Source: an uncultured beta proteobacterium
GTDB taxonomy: Bacteria; Pseudomonadota; Gammaproteobacteria; Burkholderiales; Burkholderiaceae_C
Length of the DNA stretch: 13,968 bases
Assembly: GCA_903870955.1 (NCBI GenBank)
Contig: CAIQEX010000554.1
Span: 1 to 13,968, forward strand
Direction: 5' to 3'
Both the position numbers and the translations under genes were made by a program. This document shows positions 2,826-11,102 of the stretch, one piece after another; the first letter of the stretch is position 1, and each line of letters begins with the position of its first letter. The notes under the pieces were generated by a model, which had not been told where the DNA came from, did not search any database, and saw only the letters and a list, made by a program, of their open reading frames with translations.

Positions 2826-2946
2826 TGTTGGCGACTCCGATAGAAAGTGAGGGCTGCGGGATTAGCCTGCCATTTTACCGGTGACATTGTCCCGGCCGTT
2901 ACCAGCGCATAACAGATGCCGGCCAAGCCCACGCTATGCTTTGGGT

Positions 2947-4068
2947 ATGAGCACACTTTTCACCCCCCTGACCCTGCCCTCGCCACGGGGCGGCATCACG
3001 CTTCCCAACCGCATTGTGGTTGCGCCGATGTGCCAGTATTCCGCCGTCAACGGCGAAGCCACCGACTGGCATTTGATGCACTGGGGCAACCTGCTTAACG
3101 GCGGCGCGGCCCTGTTCACCATCGAAGCCACAGCGGTGCTGCCCGAGGGCCGCATCACCCCCAACTGCCTGGGCCTGTGGGATGGCCGCACCGAAGCCAA
3201 GCTGGCCGACACCCTGCAGCGCGCCCGCAAACTGGCACCGAAAACTGCCGTGTGCATCCAGTTGGCCCATGCCGGGCGCAAGGCGTCCAGTGACGTACCC
3301 TGGCAGGGCGGGCAGTTGCTGGGCCCGGACAACGGCGGCTGGCCCACCTACGGCCCTTCAGCCTTGCCGCAGTTGCCCCATGAGGCGCCACCGGCCGCCA
3401 TGGGCGCCTATGAACTGACCCGCGTGCGCGAAGCCTTTGTGACCGCCGCCCTGCGTGCCGACAAAATCGGCATCGACGCCGTCGAATTGCACTGTGCGCA
3501 CGGCTATCTGCTGCATCAATTCCTGTCACCTCTCTCGAACACACGCACCGACGCCTATGGCGGCAGCCTGGAAAACCGCATGCGCTATCCGCTGGAAGTA
3601 TTTGCCGCCATGCGTGCGGCCTACCAGGGCGTGCTGGGCATCCGCGTGTCGGCCAGCGACTGGGTGGACGGCGGGTTGACACCCGATGAGGTGACCGAAT
3701 TCGCCCGCCGCCTGAAGGCCCTGGGTTGCGACTTTGTCCACGTCTCCAGTGGTGGCGTGTCGCCGCAACAAAAGATCGCCATCGGCCCGGGCTACCAGGT
3801 GCACTTTGCCCGGCAGATTCGCGCCGCCACCGGCATGGTCACCACCGCAGTGGGGATGATCACCGAGGCACAACAGGCCGAAGACATTCTGCAAGCCGGT
3901 GATGCCGACCTGATCGCCCTGGCCCGCGCCTTTCTGTACCAGCCCCGCTGGGGTTGGCGCGCCGCTGCCGCCCTGGGTGGCGCGGTGGAAGCCAACCCGG
4001 TCTATTGGCGCAGCCTGCCGCGCGAAGCGCAGACTGCCTTTGGCAAGGTCTCGGTAGGCCAGCGCTAA
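2947..4068 (+). CDS. NADH:flavin oxidoreductase, Old Yellow Enzyme family (YqjM/NamA-like)
   Basis: FMN-dependent TIM-barrel ene-reductase, expected to reduce activated C=C bonds of unsaturated carbonyl compounds with NAD(P)H in the cytoplasm; the physiological substrate is unknown. The protein has 373 residues, a normal length. It carries the YqjM-subclass signature APMCQYS (Cys29 and Tyr31, the redox-tuning Cys position), QLAHAGRKAS (105-114), the substrate-anion pair His182/His185 in LHCAHGYLLHQFLSPLSN, TRTDAYGGSLENR (199-211), and the FMN phosphate-binding segments near GMITEA and ALARAF (Arg327). The frame is open upstream to 2881, but the start at 2947 gives the usual N-terminus STLFTPLTL. 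No clear Shine-Dalgarno precedes it, so the start rests on homology. speD follows 11 bases downstream, suggesting one transcript. Confidence 0.93.
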   Translation: MSTLFTPLTLPSPRGGITLPNRIVVAPMCQYSAVNGEATDWHLMHWGNLLNGGAALFTIEATAVLPEGRITPNCLGLWDGRTEAKLADTLQRARKLAPKTAVCIQLAHAGRKASSDVPWQGGQLLGPDNGGWPTYGPSALPQLPHEAPPAAMGAYELTRVREAFVTAALRADKIGIDAVELHCAHGYLLHQFLSPLSNTRTDAYGGSLENRMRYPLEVFAAMRAAYQGVLGIRVSASDWVDGGLTPDEVTEFARRLKALGCDFVHVSSGGVSPQQKIAIGPGYQVHFARQIRAATGMVTTAVGMITEAQQAEDILQAGDADLIALARAFLYQPRWGWRAAAALGGAVEANPVYWRSLPREAQTAFGKVSVGQR

Positions 4069-4079
4069 GCGAGTCGGCC

Positions 4080-4457
4080 ATGCACGGCCTGCACCTGACT
4101 GCCGACCTGACCCACTGCGCCTGTGAGGCCGCACTGCTGACCGATGCCGACCGGCTCGGGGCGCTGTGCATGCAAGCCGTGACAGACGCCGGGCTGCAAG
4201 CCGTGGCCCAACTGTTTCACACCTTCCCGAACACGGCACACGGCGCCGGTGGCGTCACCGCCACGGTGCTGCTGGCCGAGTCGCACCTGTGCGTGCACAC
4301 CTGGCCCGAACAATCGGCCGTCACGCTGGATGTGTATGTGTGCAACTTTGGCGGCGACCATTCCAGCAAGGCGCACGCGTTGATGGCGGCGCTGCGGGAT
4401 TTGTTTAAGCCAGCGCATTGCAGATTGAATCAGTTGGAGCGAGGCAAGGTTCCCTGA
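4080..4457 (+). CDS. speD: S-adenosylmethionine decarboxylase proenzyme, small prokaryotic type
   Basis: Pyruvoyl enzyme that decarboxylates S-adenosylmethionine, supplying the aminopropyl donor for spermidine synthesis. The 125-residue length suits the class seen in Thermotoga and Bacillus. The self-processing site is ESHLCVHTWPE. Cleavage is expected between Glu67 and Ser68, with Ser68 becoming the pyruvoyl group. His73 (processing) and Cys88 in DVYVCNFG (proton donor) match known catalytic positions. The N-terminus GLHLTADLTHC matches the family start, so the ATG at 4080 is preferred over the upstream open frame that overlaps the reductase gene. No spermidine synthase gene is seen here, so its partner must be elsewhere. 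Its 3' end converges with the response regulator gene, with only 11 bases between the stop codons. Confidence 0.92.
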   Translation: MHGLHLTADLTHCACEAALLTDADRLGALCMQAVTDAGLQAVAQLFHTFPNTAHGAGGVTATVLLAESHLCVHTWPEQSAVTLDVYVCNFGGDHSSKAHALMAALRDLFKPAHCRLNQLERGKVP

Positions 4458-4468
4458 ATCCGCAAAGG

Positions 4469-5110
4469 CTACAACCCGTTGTCCCGCAAAAACACCAAAA
4501 GTTCATTGCTGTTGGCGAGCTCCAGTTTGTCAAAAATACTGGCGCGGTAATTGTCCACGGTTCGCCAGTTAATCGGTTTGGCCGGGGCCTGCTGTGTGAG
4601 AAGTTGCGCGGCCACTTTACTGGACATGCCCTGGGCCACCAGCGGGGCCACCTGCTTCTCACGGGGTGTAACTTTGGCCCAGCGCTGCAAAGCTTGGTGG
4701 CGGTCACGCCGTGCAGCTGCAATGCCCGCCGCCCGCGCCTTGGCTTGTTCAACCGCCTCCATGAGATGCTCGTCCTTGCAGGGTTTTTCCAGCCATGTCA
4801 CCGCGCCTTCCTGCATGGCGCGCACGGCCACGGGTAACGTGCCGTGTCCGGACAGAAACACCACTACCAGCGGACTGGTGCGCTCCTGGAGCGCGGCAAA
4901 AACTTCCAGCCCGCTGATGCCCGGCTCCATGCGCAGGTCCAGCAGCACGACGCCACTGCCGTCCAGATTGGCACCTTCGAGAAAGGCCTCGCCACTTGCA
5001 AAGGTCTTGACCGAACAATCGGGCAGACGCGCCAGCAGCAGGCTACCGAGCGAACGGCGCACGGCTTCATCGTCATCGACGATGTACAGGTTGAGGTTTT
5101 TCGGGTTCAT
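4469..5110 (-). CDS. LuxR/FixJ-type response regulator, DctR-like
   Basis: Cytoplasmic transcription factor of 213 residues, expected to be phosphorylated by the kinase encoded just upstream. Receiver domain, residues 5-125: acidic pocket Asp12-Asp14 (IVDDDEAV), phosphoacceptor Asp58 (LLDLRMEPGISG), Ser87 (LSGHG) and Lys109 (EKP). The C-terminal helix-turn-helix of the NarL/FixJ class spans roughly 147-213 (VTPREKQVAPLVAQGMSS ... RTVDNYRASIFDKLEL). Between the two core helices there are about seven more residues (around TQQAPAKPINW) than in ordinary members, which is unusual. The ATG overlaps the kinase stop as ATGA (5107-5110), and no good ribosome binding site is visible, so translational coupling is likely. 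DctS/DctR of Rhodobacter capsulatus, which control C4-dicarboxylate uptake, are the nearest named precedent I can recall. The target here is inferred, not shown. Confidence 0.9.
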   Translation of the reverse strand: MNPKNLNLYIVDDDEAVRRSLGSLLLARLPDCSVKTFASGEAFLEGANLDGSGVVLLDLRMEPGISGLEVFAALQERTSPLVVVFLSGHGTLPVAVRAMQEGAVTWLEKPCKDEHLMEAVEQAKARAAGIAAARRDRHQALQRWAKVTPREKQVAPLVAQGMSSKVAAQLLTQQAPAKPINWRTVDNYRASIFDKLELANSNELLVFLRDNGL

Positions 5111-7281
5111 AGGCTTTTAGGAAGGTAAACCGTAAAAATTGCGCCGCCCTGGGGCGCGTTCTCAAACTCAAGGCGGCCACGATGACTCTCGATGGTGGTG
5201 CGGCAGATGTTCAGGCCCAGGCCCAAGCCATCGGGCTTGGTGGTGAAGAAGGGCTCAAACAATTGCGCCACCACCGGCTGTGCAATGCCAGGGCCACGAT
5301 CCGACACGCGAATAAACACCATGTCGTCCTGCGCCCCGGTCTGCACCCGCACTTGTTTGTCCACCGGGTATTTGTCCTGCATCGCTTGCAAGGCGTTGAG
5401 CACCAGGTTCAAAACCACCTGTTCCAGCAACACACGGTCGGCCTGGATGGCGGGCAAATGCGCATCCAGCTGCGTGATGACACGCGCTTGCTGGTGGCGG
5501 ATTTCGGGGCGCATCAGGGCCAGCACATTGCTGACCACATCGTTGACAGCGCAATCCTGAAAACCGGGGGTTTGCTGGCGCACAAAGCCACGGATACGGC
5601 CGACAATTTCGGCGGCGCGCTGGGCTTGTTCGCTGATGTCACTGAGCGTCTCATTCAACAGTTCGCGGTGGCCACGGTCTGCATAGGCACGTGCCGCACC
5701 GGCAAAGCTGCCCAGCGCCATCAACGGCTGGCTGAGTTCGTGTGCCAGGGTGGAAGCCATCTCGCCCAAGGTGGCGAGGCGCCCGGTGCGTTGCATTTTG
5801 GCGGCCTGCACGCGTTGCTGTTCTTCGGCACGCTTTTGTTCGGTGATGTCCACCACCGAACTCATCCAGCCACTGTGCTTTCCGGTGCTGTCAATCAGCG
5901 GTGCCGAATAGACCATGGTGTAGACGTCGTGTCCATCGCGGTGGCGGATGCGCGACTCAAAGCCATTCATGGTGGTCTTGCCACTGAGCACGGCGTCGTT
6001 GTCCTGCCAGTGCTTTTCCAGATCGTCCGGGTGCCAGTAGGGGTAGGGAGGCAGATGACCGACCAATTCATCTGCACGGTAGCCGGTGATATCGCACAGC
6101 GCGGGGTTGACGTAAATCATGCGCCCCGCCAGATCGCGTGCGCGCATGCCGACCAGCAGCGAGTCGCCCATGGCTTTGCGAAACGCATGCGACTCCTGCA
6201 GCTCTGCGGTGCGCTCGAGCACCCGCTTTTCCAGTTCACTGCGGTGCCGGCGCATCTCGATATAGCGGCGCTCGCGCTGCTGCGCCACCTTGAACGCCAG
6301 GATCAAAACCAGCGCCAGCAGCACAGCAAGAGCGCGACCCATCCAGCGCGCCCAGTTGACGGGTGCGAGGTCCGTCATGACCGTCAGCGTCCATTGAAAT
6401 TCCGGCAGATTCTCGTCCAGAGACAGCAGTTGCTGGGGCTTGCCATCCATCAGGGTGCGGGTCTCGTAACTGGCTTCGGACGCTTCGCGATTTTGTTTCC
6501 ATTCGATGGGCGCGAAGCTTGCGCGTTCACCGTATTGCCGATGCTTGTGGACCCATGCCAGTTCATCGGCTTGCAGGGCCCGTGTGGTCTTGTATTTCCA
6601 GGCTTCGATCGAGCCCAAAAAAACGATGCCATGCGCATCCGTCAAAAACACCGGATCTTTGCTGCGTCGCCAGGCATCCTCGATATCCCGCAGGCTGACC
6701 TTGATGGCCAGCACACCGGCTACCTCGTCACCCAGGCGCACCGGTGCGGTCATAAACAGACCTGGAACGCCAGTGCTGGTGCCAATGGCAAAGAAGAACC
6801 CATCGTGACCGGCCATGGCATCCAGAAAGTAGGGACGAAAGGAATAGTTGTCACCCACAAAACTCTCGGTTTCCAACCAGTTGCTGGCGGCCAGGGTGAC
6901 GCCTCGGGAGTCCATCAGGTACAGCGCGTCCGAGCCCACCTGGCGACTGGTGGCCTGCAGAAACCGGTTGACCCTATTGGTCAGGGCTTTGTCGCTGGGC
7001 GACTGCAGCAAGGCCTTGATGTCAGCGTGCTGGGCCGTGACAAAGGGTATCTGGTTGTAGCGCGCCACCGTGCCCCGCAGACCCAGGGCCTGGACCTCAA
7101 TGGTGCGGTGAATGGCATCAATCTGGATGCCCTTTTCGCGTCGCGCATTCCACTCACCTGCCAGCCAAGCCAGGACCACAACCGCCAGCACATAAAGCGC
7201 CCATAGCAGCTTGCTGCGCAGGCTGCCAATGCCGGGCTCCGAGGAGTCGGTGCGCTCCACGGCGGCTAAATCGGTTGTCAT
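5107..7281 (-). CDS. Membrane sensor histidine kinase with dCache-like periplasmic domain and PAS (DctB/DctS-like)
   Basis: Predicted inner-membrane sensor of 724 residues. Order: short cytoplasmic tail, TM1 (about 22-41), periplasmic domain (about 45-310), TM2 (about 314-331), coiled linker, PAS domain (about 365-485), dimerisation/phosphoacceptor domain (LGEMASTLAHELSQPL, His514), then ATPase domain with N box (LNLVLNALQAM), DRGPGI, LFEPFFTTK and GLGLGLNIC. The periplasmic stretches FVGDNYSFRPYF (141-152) and GTSTGVPGLFMTAPV (167-181) closely recall the carboxylate-binding sensor domain of DctB-type kinases, which suggests an organic-acid ligand. The start at 7281 is chosen because GGGAAGG lies 8 bases upstream. 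An in-frame ATG at 7320 lacks a ribosome binding site but cannot be excluded. Its stop overlaps the regulator start by four bases. Confidence 0.93.
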   Translation of the reverse strand: MTTDLAAVERTDSSEPGIGSLRSKLLWALYVLAVVVLAWLAGEWNARREKGIQIDAIHRTIEVQALGLRGTVARYNQIPFVTAQHADIKALLQSPSDKALTNRVNRFLQATSRQVGSDALYLMDSRGVTLAASNWLETESFVGDNYSFRPYFLDAMAGHDGFFFAIGTSTGVPGLFMTAPVRLGDEVAGVLAIKVSLRDIEDAWRRSKDPVFLTDAHGIVFLGSIEAWKYKTTRALQADELAWVHKHRQYGERASFAPIEWKQNREASEASYETRTLMDGKPQQLLSLDENLPEFQWTLTVMTDLAPVNWARWMGRALAVLLALVLILAFKVAQQRERRYIEMRRHRSELEKRVLERTAELQESHAFRKAMGDSLLVGMRARDLAGRMIYVNPALCDITGYRADELVGHLPPYPYWHPDDLEKHWQDNDAVLSGKTTMNGFESRIRHRDGHDVYTMVYSAPLIDSTGKHSGWMSSVVDITEQKRAEEQQRVQAAKMQRTGRLATLGEMASTLAHELSQPLMALGSFAGAARAYADRGHRELLNETLSDISEQAQRAAEIVGRIRGFVRQQTPGFQDCAVNDVVSNVLALMRPEIRHQQARVITQLDAHLPAIQADRVLLEQVVLNLVLNALQAMQDKYPVDKQVRVQTGAQDDMVFIRVSDRGPGIAQPVVAQLFEPFFTTKPDGLGLGLNICRTTIESHRGRLEFENAPQGGAIFTVYLPKSL

Positions 7282-7351
7282 AGGTTGTGCCTTCCCTTGC
7301 TTTTTTTGGTCATTGTCCATCAAACCAATGCGGGTACCGAAAGCCGCCACA

Positions 7352-7486
7352 CTAGCGCACGATGACGGGCGCAGCATGGGTGCCATCGTCGTCCATAGAC
7401 CGGGGGGTAGAGACCAACCAGGCCAGCAGCACCATGGCCACAAACAGCAGAGCGCTGATCCAACGCAGGGCTTTCCAGAAGTTCAT
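7352..7486 (-). CDS. Small single-span membrane protein of unknown function (44 residues)
   Basis: An ORF too short for usual cutoffs. It begins MNFWKALRWISALLFVAMV and has one hydrophobic helix (about residues 9-25), a few basic residues before it, and an acidic SMDDDG patch after it; the last residues are VIVR. The arrangement suggests an N-in, C-out inner-membrane peptide, which is inference. Support for translation is strong for its size. A GGGAG ribosome binding site lies about 8 bases before the ATG, and that ATG overlaps the stop of the coiled-coil gene as ATGA (7483-7486). The kinase gene begins 70 bases after its stop. No family is recognised. By position it could be an accessory subunit of the kinase or of the coiled-coil protein. 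Confidence 0.65.
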   Translation of the reverse strand: MNFWKALRWISALLFVAMVLLAWLVSTPRSMDDDGTHAAPVIVR

Positions 7487-8268
7487 GACTTGCTCCCGGT
7501 TTTTAACACCGTGGAGACCTGCAAGGCATCCATCGGATCGAAGCGGCTATTGGCCAGATAGTCGCGCGTTGGTGAGTCCATGGAACTCAGCTCCACATCG
7601 AGTTCGGCGAACACGCGGTTGAAGCGGGACTGCACTTCGGTCAGGGCTTCGTCGGTCAGCAGGCCTTGCATCAGGTCCTGCATCTCACTCGGGTTGAGCG
7701 CTTCCATCACCACCTGCCCGGCCTGGGCAAATTCCCACTCAAACATCTTCTGTTTGACTTGGTGGCGAAACGCCTGCAGCGCCGCGTGGGCCTCCTCCAA
7801 CCTGCGGATATTGGCCTGGTAAAACTGTTGCATGCGGCGCAGGGCGCGCTCTTGCCGGTCCAGCACATGTTCCGGGTCCAGGTGGCGGCGCTCCTGAATC
7901 ATCTGGCTCATGTTTTCAATCTGACCACCAATGGTGACCAGCGCCTGGCGAAAGGACTGCAGACGTTCCTCGCGGCGCAGGCAGTCGTTTTGCAACTGCT
8001 CGATGGGGTTGGCGCGGGCCTCCGCTTTGCGCAGTTGAAGCAAACGGTTTTCCAGCTTTTGCAGCGCCAGCGGCAAGGCCTGGAAAGCGGCAAAGCCCAC
8101 CGCAGCCATGCCCGCCAAAGCGGCCAGACCGGCACCAGTGGACACTGCGGCCCAGACCAGGGGGCCTGACAGAGCCAGCAGCACCAGCGTGCCAAACACG
8201 GCACCGCCACGCAGTGCCCAGACCTTGAAATCATGCACCTGCTGGGCAGGGATGGGGTTCGTTTGCAT
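7483..8268 (-). CDS. Membrane-anchored coiled-coil protein of unknown function
   Basis: A 261-residue protein that I do not assign to a family. Residues 20-41 and 43-65 form two hydrophobic segments rich in Ala, Gly and Leu, separated by a very short turn, consistent with a membrane hairpin that leaves both ends on the same side. From about 68 to 185 the sequence is a charged, heptad-like helix (LENRLLQLRKAEAR ... RRLEEAHAALQAFRHQV), probably a long coiled coil. The C-terminal 75 residues are acidic and mixed. The ATG at 8268 is preferred because AGGAG lies 7 bases upstream. An in-frame ATG at 8292 overlaps the preceding stop (ATGA) but has no ribosome binding site. It lies between the TAXI receptor and the small membrane protein in the operon, so it may link receptor and kinase or form an oligomeric scaffold. 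That role is speculation. Confidence 0.85.
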   Translation of the reverse strand: MQTNPIPAQQVHDFKVWALRGGAVFGTLVLLALSGPLVWAAVSTGAGLAALAGMAAVGFAAFQALPLALQKLENRLLQLRKAEARANPIEQLQNDCLRREERLQSFRQALVTIGGQIENMSQMIQERRHLDPEHVLDRQERALRRMQQFYQANIRRLEEAHAALQAFRHQVKQKMFEWEFAQAGQVVMEALNPSEMQDLMQGLLTDEALTEVQSRFNRVFAELDVELSSMDSPTRDYLANSRFDPMDALQVSTVLKTGSKS

Positions 8269-8273
8269 GGGGT

Positions 8274-8281
8274 ATCTCCTG
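8274..8281 (-). promoter_or_regulatory. Ribosome binding site that decides the start of the coiled-coil gene
   Basis: The minus strand reads CAGGAGATACCCC directly before the ATG at 8268. This strong Shine-Dalgarno core favours 8268 over the in-frame ATG at 8292, which has only C/G-rich sequence without a purine core upstream. Confidence 0.7.
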
Positions 8282-8288
8282 GGCGAAT

Positions 8289-9272
8289 TCATGGTGCTAC
8301 ACGGGGCGTCGCGTTGGCGCGTGCGGTCTTCTGGCCCTCGGCCCGGGTAAAGCGGGCGATGCCCAGGGTATCGGTCGGGTTCTTGATTTCTTTCCAGGCG
8401 GCAGAGAAGCGACCTTCCTGCAGGTTATCCATGTTGCGCAGCAGACACGTTTGCAGGGCACCCACCTTCTTGCCCATGTCGCCGGCGGGCTTGAAGGGCC
8501 GCGTGAGGAGCAGATTTGGCACCGCCAGGAAGCTGAAGTTAAAGGCATCCAGGTTCTGGTAGTTGCGCTTCACGGCGACAAAAGGCGGGTGGGCGCTCAG
8601 GTCGTATTCGACCAGCACCAGACCGCTGCCATGCGTGTGCCGCACGATGTTGGGCATGGGCCAACCGCCCGAGGTGAAGATGGCTTGCACCTTGTTGGAC
8701 TGCAACAATTTGAGGGCCTGGTCATCGTTGTCGGCCACCACAAAATCCATGTCGTAGCCCAACTGGCTGTTGAGTGTTTGCCCCAGCAACTGGGCCGAAC
8801 CCACCAGGGCCACGCGTACCCCCTTGAGGTCGGAGAACTTGCGGATCTGCCGCGTTTCTCCAAACGAGACCAGACCGCCCGACTTCACCTTGGAGCCTTC
8901 CCGCAGTGCCAGCACGTGCAACAGGTTGCTGTGCAGGGGCATTACGGCCTGCAGGTTGCGCAGGTTGTCGTCGCCACCGCGTGCCATTTCCTGCAGCGTG
9001 TCGAGTTGGGCAATGCCCAGATCGGCCTCATTGGCGGAGAGTTTCATCAGGTTTTGCAGGCCGCCCGCACTGGGCACGGCGCACACCGAGACTTCGTTAC
9101 CACAGACTGTCTGGATGTCGCGCACGATCAGCTCGTACACGCCCCCCTTGGGTCCACTGCCAATGCGCAAGGCGCAGTCGGCTGGTTCATCTTCTGCAAA
9201 AGCCGTGTGGCTCGACAGCATCGCGGCGACCACGGTGCAAAGCAGGCGAGCGATAAATGGATGGGGGCGCAT
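8289..9272 (-). CDS. TAXI-family TRAP-type solute-binding protein
   Basis: Predicted periplasmic receptor of 327 residues. A signal peptide (MRPHPFIARLLCTVVAAMLS, with cleavage likely after AFA at 26) precedes the mature domain. LRIGSGPKGGVYELIVRDI (35-53) is the N-terminal TAXI hallmark, followed by SAGGLQNLMKLSANEADLGIAQLD (68-91), the segment where TAXI proteins normally read SGGS-x-N and AD-x-G. Four cysteines (33, 57, 64, 276) remain in the mature protein and could form disulfides. An AAGGAG ribosome binding site lies 7 bases before the ATG. TAXI proteins normally deliver ligand to a fused TRAP permease, but none is encoded here. The downstream genes encode two unknown membrane proteins and a two-component system. 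It may therefore act as a sensory receptor, or work with a permease encoded elsewhere. A relationship to NMT1-like periplasmic proteins is a less likely alternative. Confidence 0.88.
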   Translation of the reverse strand: MRPHPFIARLLCTVVAAMLSSHTAFAEDEPADCALRIGSGPKGGVYELIVRDIQTVCGNEVSVCAVPSAGGLQNLMKLSANEADLGIAQLDTLQEMARGGDDNLRNLQAVMPLHSNLLHVLALREGSKVKSGGLVSFGETRQIRKFSDLKGVRVALVGSAQLLGQTLNSQLGYDMDFVVADNDDQALKLLQSNKVQAIFTSGGWPMPNIVRHTHGSGLVLVEYDLSAHPPFVAVKRNYQNLDAFNFSFLAVPNLLLTRPFKPAGDMGKKVGALQTCLLRNMDNLQEGRFSAAWKEIKNPTDTLGIARFTRAEGQKTARANATPRVAP

Positions 9273-9359: not shown

Positions 9360-9372
9360 GTAGAACTACACA
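9357..9372. promoter_or_regulatory. Candidate operator: 16-bp near-palindrome
   Basis: TGTGTAGAACTACACA has two 7-base arms that pair perfectly around a central AA. Its size and symmetry suit a dimeric helix-turn-helix regulator such as the FixJ-type protein of this operon. It lies about 85 bases upstream of the TAXI start and overlaps the SulP stop codon. It shares bases 9357-9359 with the terminator stem, so as RNA the two hairpins exclude each other. Function is inferred; no regulator has been tied to it. Confidence 0.35.
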
Positions 9373-11102
9373 GTCGGCGGCGCCCCACCCGTACCTGGCG
9401 CAAGGGCGGCTTCCACCGCATCGGCCACGCTCCAGAACACCTTTGCATCACTGCCCACACCGGCCGGGTCCACGTGCTGCAGCAATTCGCGCACGGTGGT
9501 CTTCACGCGTGCCAGCAACAGCACCTTGTTGGCGGACTGCAGGCTGTGGCGCAGTTCCATCAGGCAGTCGACGGCCGTGCTGTCGAGGTCGGCACTTTCT
9601 TCCAGACTCAGGATGACGGTGTGCAGACCGGATCGGCCACGAACCGCACGCATGACCTCGCCCATGACCCGCTCCGCACTGCCGAAGAACAAAGGCTCCT
9701 CGGGCCGCAGAATCAACAGGCCGGGCTTTGCCTGTGCCTCGGCCTGAACCTGCACGTCGACATAGTTGCGGCTGCTCCCGAGTTCGCCCAGTTCATGCAC
9801 CACCGGTTGACTGAAGCGGTGCAACGCGCCCAGCACCGACAAGGCAATGGCGGCCAGCATGCCGTCCAGCACACCGAACAAGAGCACGGCGGCCACGGCA
9901 GCCAGCAACAACCATCGGTCACGATTCATGCGCCAGACCTGCATTAGCGGGCGCACCGACAGGGCATGCCACAACGCGCTGATCACCGCCACCGCCAGCA
10001 CCGGTCGCGGCAGCAGTTGCAGTGTTGGCAGCGCCAGCCACAGGGCGAGCAAGACTGCCGCCAAGGCAAAAGCACCGGCCTTGCGCGACACCGCGCCCGC
10101 AGCGGCATTGGCGCTGGTGGCCGAGAAGCCAGCGCCCACCACCATGCCCTGCATAAGCCCTGCACCAACGTTGCAGGCGCCCAGCACCATCAGTTCCCGA
10201 TCGGCATTCAGCGTGTCGCCATGCGCCAGCGCTTGCGTGCGCATGCTGCCCCACGACTCGGCAAACACCAGCATCACCAGCCCAAAGGCCAGCTCACCCG
10301 CGCGTAGCCATTCACTTTGCGCCAACTGCGGCAGCCCCACTGCGAACACGGGTGCGGCCACCGCGCCAACCTGATGCACCAACAGCGCTGACCAGCCTGG
10401 CAAGCGCGTGATGGCGATGGCCAGCAGCATCACCATCAAGGAGGCTGGCAAACGCGGCCAGCGCCGCAGCCACCCGATCAACGCGCCGGCGGCCAGCGCC
10501 AGCATCACGCTCGGCAGATGCCAGGTGTGCAACTGCGTGAGCGCAAAGTACAGGAGCGAGAACGGGTCGGCACGCACGGCAGCCGGCACTTCGAGCCCCA
10601 ACGCGTCCGGCAGTTGCTTGACGACGATCGACAACGCCAGCGCAAAGGCAAAACCTTTGAGTACCGGCCGCGAAACATAAGACGAGAGCTGACCCTGGCG
10701 CGCCACGGCCAACAGCACCAACAGCACACCGCTAAGCAAAACCATGGCCATCACCACCTGCGTATAGGCGGCAGCGGTCGCCACGCTATAGGCACCACCC
10801 ATGGACACGGCTGCCGCTGCGGCCAGCGCGGCAGTGGATGAGGTGGGCGCCACGATGGCAAAGCGACTACCGCCAAACAAGGCGTACACGGCCAAGCCGA
10901 TGACCACGGCCGTCAGCGCGTGGCCGACCGGCAAATGCGCCAACCCGGCATAGGCCACGGCTTCAGGCAGCAGCAGCCCGGCCACACACAGGCCAGCCAC
11001 CATGTCGGGCCACAGGCTGGTTATGTCTGTGTCTGTGTCTGTGTCTGTGTTTGGGTTTGGGTTTGGGTTTGGGTTTGGGTTTTGTAAATCGGCTTTGCGC
11101 AT
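9366..11102 (-). CDS. SulP-family inorganic anion transporter with STAS domain
   Basis: Inner-membrane secondary carrier of the SLC26/SulP family; known members carry sulfate, bicarbonate or dicarboxylates, and the substrate here cannot be read from sequence. The protein has 578 residues. The family entry motif is DMVAGLCVAGLLLPEAVAYA (33-52), followed by YALFGGSRFAIVAPTSSTAA. Many Ala/Leu-rich membrane segments run to about residue 430. A cytoplasmic STAS domain follows (about 450-565) with the conserved DSTAVD at 507-512. Residues 8-26 are a low-complexity tail of five Asn-Pro repeats then Thr-Asp repeats, encoded by a hexanucleotide microsatellite. The ATG at 11102 has no clear ribosome binding site. 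Met34, immediately before the SulP core, is a possible alternative start, which would put the repeats in the leader. Confidence 0.93.
   Translation of the reverse strand: MRKADLQNPNPNPNPNPNTDTDTDTDITSLWPDMVAGLCVAGLLLPEAVAYAGLAHLPVGHALTAVVIGLAVYALFGGSRFAIVAPTSSTAALAAAAAVSMGGAYSVATAAAYTQVVMAMVLLSGVLLVLLAVARQGQLSSYVSRPVLKGFAFALALSIVVKQLPDALGLEVPAAVRADPFSLLYFALTQLHTWHLPSVMLALAAGALIGWLRRWPRLPASLMVMLLAIAITRLPGWSALLVHQVGAVAAPVFAVGLPQLAQSEWLRAGELAFGLVMLVFAESWGSMRTQALAHGDTLNADRELMVLGACNVGAGLMQGMVVGAGFSATSANAAAGAVSRKAGAFALAAVLLALWLALPTLQLLPRPVLAVAVISALWHALSVRPLMQVWRMNRDRWLLLAAVAAVLLFGVLDGMLAAIALSVLGALHRFSQPVVHELGELGSSRNYVDVQVQAEAQAKPGLLILRPEEPLFFGSAERVMGEVMRAVRGRSGLHTVILSLEESADLDSTAVDCLMELRHSLQSANKVLLLARVKTTVRELLQHVDPAGVGSDAKVFWSVADAVEAALAPGTGGAPPTV
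11024..11083. repeat. Hexanucleotide microsatellite with G-quadruplex motif
   Basis: On the plus strand there are four TGTCTG units (11024-11047), one transitional TGTTTG, then five TTTGGG units in phase (11050-11079). The second block gives five GGG runs spaced by TTT, a canonical intramolecular G-quadruplex motif on the template strand of the SulP gene; the coding strand is correspondingly C-rich. Unit length is six, so gain or loss of copies keeps the reading frame and only changes the number of Asn-Pro or Thr-Asp dipeptides. Confidence 0.95.

Follow-up and report, generated by a model that had tools for sequence, protein, structure and literature searches.

A three-gene cassette of a TAXI-type receptor and two membrane proteins, with no adjacent TRAP permease gene, as a candidate co-sensor for two-component kinases

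In the Bordetella tripartite tricarboxylate transporter (TTT) system for citrate, the periplasmic solute-binding protein BctC, which works with BctD and BctE, is needed for the kinase response and contacts the kinase (reviewed in PMC5812351). In Bacillus subtilis, the DctS-DctB-DctA system for C4-dicarboxylates combines a sensor kinase with an accessory receptor (PMC6978683). A TAXI receptor without a gene for a TRAP permease is described, in the TAXI-GltS system of Bordetella pertussis (PMC12344293), as an elongated dimeric lipoprotein translationally coupled to a glutamate symporter; the terms “histidine kinase” and “sensor” are absent from the main text of that paper. PspA homologs of the PSP/Lia envelope-stress systems are sometimes linked to two-component systems (PMC11237479; TAXI and TRAP are absent from its main text). 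Here we analyze a stretch of 13,968 nucleotides (hereafter, the window) from an uncultured beta proteobacterium, in which a TAXI receptor gene is found together with genes for a coiled-coil membrane protein (CC), a small membrane protein (SMP), a histidine kinase and a response regulator. The conserved unit is a three-gene cassette, CC-SMP-TAXI, and it appears somewhat probable that this cassette is a portable, transport-free co-sensor for two-component kinases.

The known systems resemble the proposed one only in part. BctC-BctE is a precedent for kinase activation that depends on a solute-binding protein, as proposed for the cassette TAXI; BctC, however, is of the TctC family and also serves the permease BctBA, and the available part of the review mentions no coiled-coil or small membrane partner (PMC5812351). 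In the B. subtilis system, a receptor likewise assists a kinase but works with the transporter DctA (PMC6978683). To our knowledge, the binding protein of the B. subtilis DctS system is not a TAXI protein, and neither CC nor SMP belongs to that system.

In the window, the genes are transcribed from the minus strand in the order SulP, TAXI, CC, SMP, histidine kinase, response regulator:

8289..9272, minus strand: TAXI-type periplasmic receptor, 327 residues (PF16868; TIGR02122 below cut-off; AlphaFold2 model)
7483..8268, minus strand: CC, predicted N-terminal membrane hairpin followed by a coiled-coil domain, 261 residues (465 homologs; start chosen from relatives)
7352..7486, minus strand: SMP, predicted single-pass small membrane protein of 44 residues, MNFWKALRW...APVIVR (motif-bearing counterparts; dN/dS)
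5107..7281, minus strand: sensor histidine kinase with two predicted transmembrane (TM) segments, a dCache-like periplasmic domain, PAS, HisKA and HATPase_c (profiles; DctB structures)
4469..5110, minus strand: response regulator with receiver and GerE/LuxR output domains, TtrR/FixJ-like (PF00072, PF00196)
9366..11102, minus strand: SulP-STAS transporter gene, outside the conserved core, possible functional partner (PF00916, PF01740)

The first-pass annotation had described the five genes from TAXI to the regulator as running in one direction with short gaps or ATGA overlaps. All five are indeed present on the minus strand, and ATGA overlaps join CC with SMP and the regulator with the kinase. 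The overlap claimed between TAXI and CC uses an upstream ATG of the CC open frame (7483-8292) that is probably not the start; the relatives and an AGGAGA site favor ATG 8268. The open frame of the kinase spans 5107-7443, and its likely start at 7281 yields 724 residues.

A scan of 84,980 species genomes identifies 47 related loci (designated by L numbers) with CC identities of 30-88% in the best segment; these loci are exact matches to one of two peptide patterns, so that remote relatives are under-sampled. TAXI adjoins CC on the same strand in 46 of the 47, upstream of it in three (L006, L007 and L050), and an SMP bearing the characteristic motif lies at the end of CC in 43. The gene order of the window thus extends beyond one strain, contrary to what would speak against the first-pass annotation, but the exact five-gene order is shared by L006 and L007 only among the fetched loci and wide conservation applies to the three-gene core, so that a strict five-gene operon is rejected as the unit. 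The genome of the window contains four copies of the cassette (contigs C554, C358, C488 and C774) and a remote CC relative (C734); the window's copy (C554) is next to the DctB-like kinase, those on C358 and C488 are next to a Cache-HisKA_3 kinase, and the one on C774 is cut by the contig end. Conversely, a profile built from the cassette TAXI proteins gives 47 matches of at least 270 bits in 34 carrier genomes, which were chosen as carriers of CC and to which the result is confined; 45 of these matches are in fetched loci with CC adjacent and two are at contig edges. The distribution of the cassette is rare and patchy: within the family, 5 of 399 genomes have matches above 300 bits and 8 of 399 have any match, with matches in 3 of 399 genomes sampled from the order, 2 of 369 from the class and 3 of 398 from the phylum (each count includes the window's own genome, and some of the other matches are weak or remote); the cassette was not found in four genus-mates. 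The genomes of L049 and L051 are labeled as candidate phyla, the L049 contig being labeled Adlerbacteria (labels as given). A search of the open-access literature, which leaves most subscription journals outside its coverage, found no description of a CC-SMP-TAXI cassette.

The gene for an adjacent TRAP membrane component, a feature of TAXI-TRAP transporters, is absent. As the first-pass annotation stated, no TRAP permease is encoded with the operon: neither DctM nor DctQ is found among the nine window proteins scanned, and none of the five DctM places in the window's genome is on the window's contig (a match to the DctP profile is found near four of them, on C745, C54, C12 and C233). Among the 47 loci, none has DctM or DctQ above 40 bits with the profiles built here, in flanks of up to 9 kb that are often cut at contig ends. 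A fused permease of the TAXI type is detected above cut-off in three of the 34 carrier genomes, and all nine matches are on contigs without the cassette. As a positive control, three weak matches to ordinary TAXI proteins adjoin a fused permease in two of these three genomes (G1506, C77 and C515; G1507, C226). The claim of absence is limited by incomplete assemblies; that of the window genome consists of 787 contigs and is 86.8% complete. A permease adjacent in relatives and lost only here, the other possibility that the first-pass annotation had set against itself, is not what is found, and loss confined to the window is rejected.

One of three kinase sets is present within the fetched locus in 32 of the 47 cases (eleven, nine and twelve loci per kinase class). 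Type A, with the order TAXI-CC-SMP-kinase-regulator, comprises the window, L006 and L007. Type B (nine loci) combines CC-SMP-TAXI with a kinase of the type A class, and type C (nine loci) with a dCache_2/sCache_2-HisKA_3 kinase of a class unrelated to those of the other sets; two receiver proteins are encoded in L021, where this was examined. The type C kinase gene is co-directional with the cassette in five loci and inverted downstream of it in four. In type D (twelve loci, among them L039 of the cultured isolate Ramlibacter rhizophilus, and the short L037), a DctP receptor gene precedes CC-SMP-TAXI, and a PAS-HisKA kinase and a LuxR-type regulator, a pair we take to be DctS/DctR-like, are encoded divergently. 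On contig C233 of the window's own genome, a DctP gene and, next after it, DctM are encoded divergently from a kinase gene of the type D class; the type D cassette thus takes the position that the permease has on C233. In L014 (8845-18744), a type B cassette with a Band_7 gene adjoins a DctP gene and a kinase gene of the type D class. In three Massilia loci (L042, L045 and L046), a hybrid kinase gene is convergent downstream of the cassette. The kinase of the window has HisKA and HATPase_c domains above cut-off and predicted TM segments near residues 18-46 and 310-336; dCache_1 scores 42.6 bits, just below the cut-off of 45, and the periplasmic region matches solved DctB sensor domains (2zbb, E-value 7.4e-36). 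Its predicted architecture (a dCache periplasmic domain between TM segments, HisKA, HATPase_c) is that of DctB/DctS-like sensor kinases. The best NCBIfam models for the regulator are TtrR and FixJ, both under cut-off.

Comparison of the CC and TAXI proteins links the two with each other, and TAXI with the partner set. The pairwise distances of CC and TAXI are correlated with r of 0.739 over 41 loci and of 0.592 over the 32 loci of the two-component clade, values not reached in any of 2000 permutations in either case. These distance analyses and the five-group analysis below cover 41 of 48 loci (L024, L027, L036 and L049-L052, which are split, cut, degenerate or very divergent, are omitted, as are the own-genome copies L077-L079 and the plasmid-borne L102). 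Rows were cut to the last 300 or 330 residues, which removes N-terminal frame extensions (six CC rows in the 50-row tree, all long rows in the distances). Over the 31 of these loci that belong to types A-D, with L037 typed by a DctP fragment on a contig that ends before any kinase, the TAXI tree requires two changes of partner set, the minimum being two, and the CC tree requires six. The approximately unbiased (AU) test applied to the CC tree rejects that the HisKA_3 set (p-AU 9e-70) or the DctB set (p-AU 7e-19) arose only once, whereas one origin of the DctP set is not rejected (p-AU 0.25). The DctB set is not a single clade on the TAXI tree either (p-AU 0.007), as expected if the other sets arose from within it. 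By this pattern, TAXI remains with its partner set whereas CC is swapped among loci, which is predicted if the receptor talks to its kinase.

The TAXI protein of the window scores 37 bits against PF16868 (cut-off 27) and 56.6 bits against TIGR02122 (cut-off 84.35), and accordingly appears to be a divergent member of the family. An AlphaFold2 model built from 67 sequences (pLDDT 89.7) is predicted to adopt the two-lobed fold of solved TAXI proteins: the best match in the Protein Data Bank (PDB) is VcGluP with glutamate (9ibo, E-value 3e-15), and the seven top PDB rows comprise VcGluP, VCA0144, a Thermus TAXI protein and an Ehrlichia immunogenic protein, with TMq of 0.60-0.62. The affinity of VcGluP (VC0430) is described as depending most on Y45 and Q93 (PMC11574862). 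Placed by profile alignment to the VcGluP chain, these residues fall on Y46 and Q89, which 63 and 64 of 67 rows, respectively, of the TAXI family examined here retain. VcGluP thus shares its fold and these two residues with the window protein; it differs in having its own permease, VcGluQM, whereas no TRAP permease gene accompanies the cassette, and its E125 is replaced by N in 64 of 67 rows. The pocket is probably functional, though the ligand may differ; from the fold and the two residues, the ligand is probably small, glutamate-like or a carboxylate.

The other two proteins belong to nameless families. CC has 465 homologs at an E-value of 0.001 and matches no Pfam family above its cut-off. 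Residues 22-69 are uncharged and lie between positively charged flanks, followed by the coiled coil, which the positive-inside rule puts in the cytoplasm; the model (pLDDT 69.6) contains helices at 11-44, 47-86, 88-130, 137-188, 194-203 and 206-230. SMP has a positive N-terminus, a single hydrophobic segment and a short tail predicted to be periplasmic; for both proteins, the topology is inferred from charge and hydropathy. In related loci, SMP is mostly 40-57 residues long (shortened to about 30 in L028), and all 33 loci among L006-L039 in which it bears the motif show a four-base overlap of its start with the CC stop. Compared to L006, the nearest fetched relative, the gene is under purifying selection (dN 0.097, dS 0.773). 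The C-terminal residues of SMP are specific to the class. The protein ends in GL in all twelve type D loci where SMP is detected and has an end containing FN in all nine loci L040-L048, which lack the three kinase sets; most ends in types A-C and L034 read P-x-(I/V/F) plus at most two further residues. PADLOC reports four weak matches to CC (best E-value 0.00038) and none to TAXI or SMP, and an anti-phage system is rejected.

Under the co-sensor reading, TAXI would be a periplasmic Venus-flytrap receptor that binds a small ligand; SMP would span the membrane with its N-terminus in the cytoplasm and show its conserved C-terminal tail to the periplasm; and CC, anchored by the hairpin and with its coiled coil in the cytoplasm, would organize the assembly. 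Ligand-bound TAXI would then engage the periplasmic domain of the neighboring kinase, and kinase and regulator would respond to the ligand without its import; the physical contacts between TAXI and kinase and the direction of signaling are inferred. A bolder version, in which the cassette encodes an undescribed class of three-protein transmembrane receptors that can be plugged into unrelated kinases, with the periplasmic C-terminus of SMP as a docking peptide or tethered pseudo-ligand for TAXI and release of the tail upon ligand binding as the signal, strikes us as quite unlikely. The observations on the side of the co-sensor reading are the conservation of the cassette, the lack of adjacent TRAP permease genes, the variety of kinase classes, the co-segregation of TAXI with the partner set and the retained ligand residues.

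Several observations weigh against this reading. Type D and four type C loci (L016, L019, L020 and L022) have kinase genes that do not run in the direction of the cassette, and the two are separated by further genes in L020. None of the three kinase sets is present in 15 of the 47 loci (L034, L037 on a short contig, and L040-L052, including those from Massilia, Rhodocyclaceae and Agitococcus; L052, counted here, has only kinase fragments), and no two-component gene is annotated within the 20.7 kb seen around the plasmid copy L102, which is outside the 47. The cassette therefore has some function for which a kinase next to it is dispensable. Moreover, the neighboring kinases carry periplasmic sensor regions of their own. 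The distant CC relative in L087 (88 bits) is preceded, at about 3.5 kb and on its own strand, by a DctP-DctQM operon, so that the absence of a permease holds for the cassette proper and not for every remote relative. The phylogenetic match, too, is less clean when more loci are included: over 41 loci, where those lacking the three kinase sets form a fifth group, the TAXI tree requires five changes (least possible, four) and the CC tree nine. L034 is then placed within type C by the TAXI tree, and on the CC tree the test does not reject that type D arose once (p-AU 0.19). A CC tree with 50 rows requires twelve changes. All trees come from quick searches (support by SH-aLRT), and because a first tree had been inspected before the AU groups were defined, the p-values are weakened. 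In type B and in five type C loci, no cassette gene is closer to the kinase gene than TAXI, which is not the case in types A and D; linkage alone could therefore explain part of the co-segregation, and a regulator that does no more than control the operon of its receptor would also give rise to the pattern. The case for a coupling of TAXI to kinase output is made from genetic linkage and co-segregation.

If the two-component system merely regulates the cassette, the latter could be an envelope- or membrane-stress structure in which CC, a membrane-bound scaffold shaped like PspA or BAR proteins, would be tied to a periplasmic protein that resembles a receptor. Neighbors such as Band_7, TelA and DUF2491 are compatible with this possibility, which we nevertheless regard as unlikely. 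The structural resemblance of CC to PspA and BAR proteins falls in a score range described by the tool as common among helical bundles, a Foldseek search with the CC model yields no match at an E-value of 0.001, and no PspA family is among the Pfam matches of CC at 0.1; the N-terminal membrane hairpin also sets CC apart from PspA. CC is probably a structural look-alike only, and the idea of CC as a PspA or BAR protein is set aside. Furthermore, TAXI retains ligand-binding residues, and the partner set is followed by TAXI more than by CC.

The cassette might also be part of a binding-protein-dependent transporter with a permease outside the TRAP family, such as SulP in the window and other carriers elsewhere. 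TAXI-GltS offers a published case of a TAXI protein lacking a TRAP permease (PMC12344293), and a SulP gene is directly upstream of the cassette in the window, where it lies 93 bp from TAXI on the same strand, as well as in L006, L011 and L020, which is a further point against transport-free sensing; the window SulP even matches the model for the C4-dicarboxylate transporter DauA, though far below cut-off. We consider this explanation rather doubtful given that SulP accompanies the cassette in only three of the 47 loci besides the window (67% identity to the window's protein in L011, 27% in L020), with an amine oxidase gene at its place in L007, which has the gene order of the window, and that linkage to a kinase is far commoner (32 of 47). 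SulP as a conserved partner is thus rejected. A general scan of the window neighbors found no GltS, no search having been aimed at GltS or other carriers. Chance or hitch-hiking without functional linkage, to which the patchy distribution lends itself (5 of 399 family genomes above 300 bits, none of four genus-mates), is extremely improbable, being already contradicted by the adjacency in 46 of 47 loci across the whole range of CC identities, by four copies with differing surroundings in one genome, and by the distance correlation. The proposal of the first-pass annotation that the receptor acts as a sensor is extended to a core joined to three kinase sets, and in other lineages to none of them, and is favored by the match between TAXI phylogeny and partner set; linkage may have produced part of that match, and a role in transport or as a stress scaffold is a less likely alternative.

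Some related arrangements are worth recording. In L096 (3639-5656, contig C734 of the window's own genome) and L087 (7439-9420), remote CC relatives (75-88 bits) adjoin one protein that combines SBP_bac_3 and LysM with a hydrophobic segment at its N-terminus, which looks as if SMP and a receptor were fused; as a query, this protein gives mainly weak matches of the SBP_bac_3 type, which are uninformative. In L085 (4459-10645) and L103 (2224-11890), a run of response regulator, histidine kinase and TAXI genes is oriented oppositely to a remote CC-TAXI pair, which has a gap of 56 bp and lacks an SMP with the motif; the TAXI protein of the run in L085 begins with a hydrophobic stretch, and in L103 several kilobases separate the run from the pair. 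L049 (8671-14497) encodes CC, a single-pass protein without the motif in the SMP position and TAXI, then a protein of 586 residues with a second, weakly TAXI-like domain (under the Pfam cut-off) and a DUF2491 protein. L052 (8986-10855) lacks TAXI and retains CC, kinase and regulator only in pieces; the copy there appears to be decaying. L102, on the conjugative plasmid pAZI09 of Azospira sp. I09 (112800-133453), contains the cassette, with SMP annotated as hypothetical, two TelA genes and unnamed genes in common with L041; TelA as a general partner is rejected given that, among the loci compared by tblastn, only L041 has a match. In the window, the SulP open frame opens with an NP run followed by TD repeats, so that either the true start is further downstream or the N-terminus varies in length. 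Genes for adenosylmethionine decarboxylase and a flavin oxidoreductase adjoin the operon (2881-4457) and are also found about 4 kb past the type B cassette of L023 (L023:17931-18790). A promoter scan of the window found no sigma-70-like site, and 13 terminator-like sites are observed against 7.5 expected.

TAXI receptors without a TRAP permease gene are easily taken for transporter remnants; if the cassette is a sensor, such interpretations are wrong for its TAXI family. Two nameless protein families, one of which is so small that gene callers may overlook it, would then be given a role, and the cassette would show a receptor and its partner kinase remaining matched as the scaffold is exchanged. 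It would then also become possible to test a general mechanism by which a nutrient receptor is lent to unrelated kinases.
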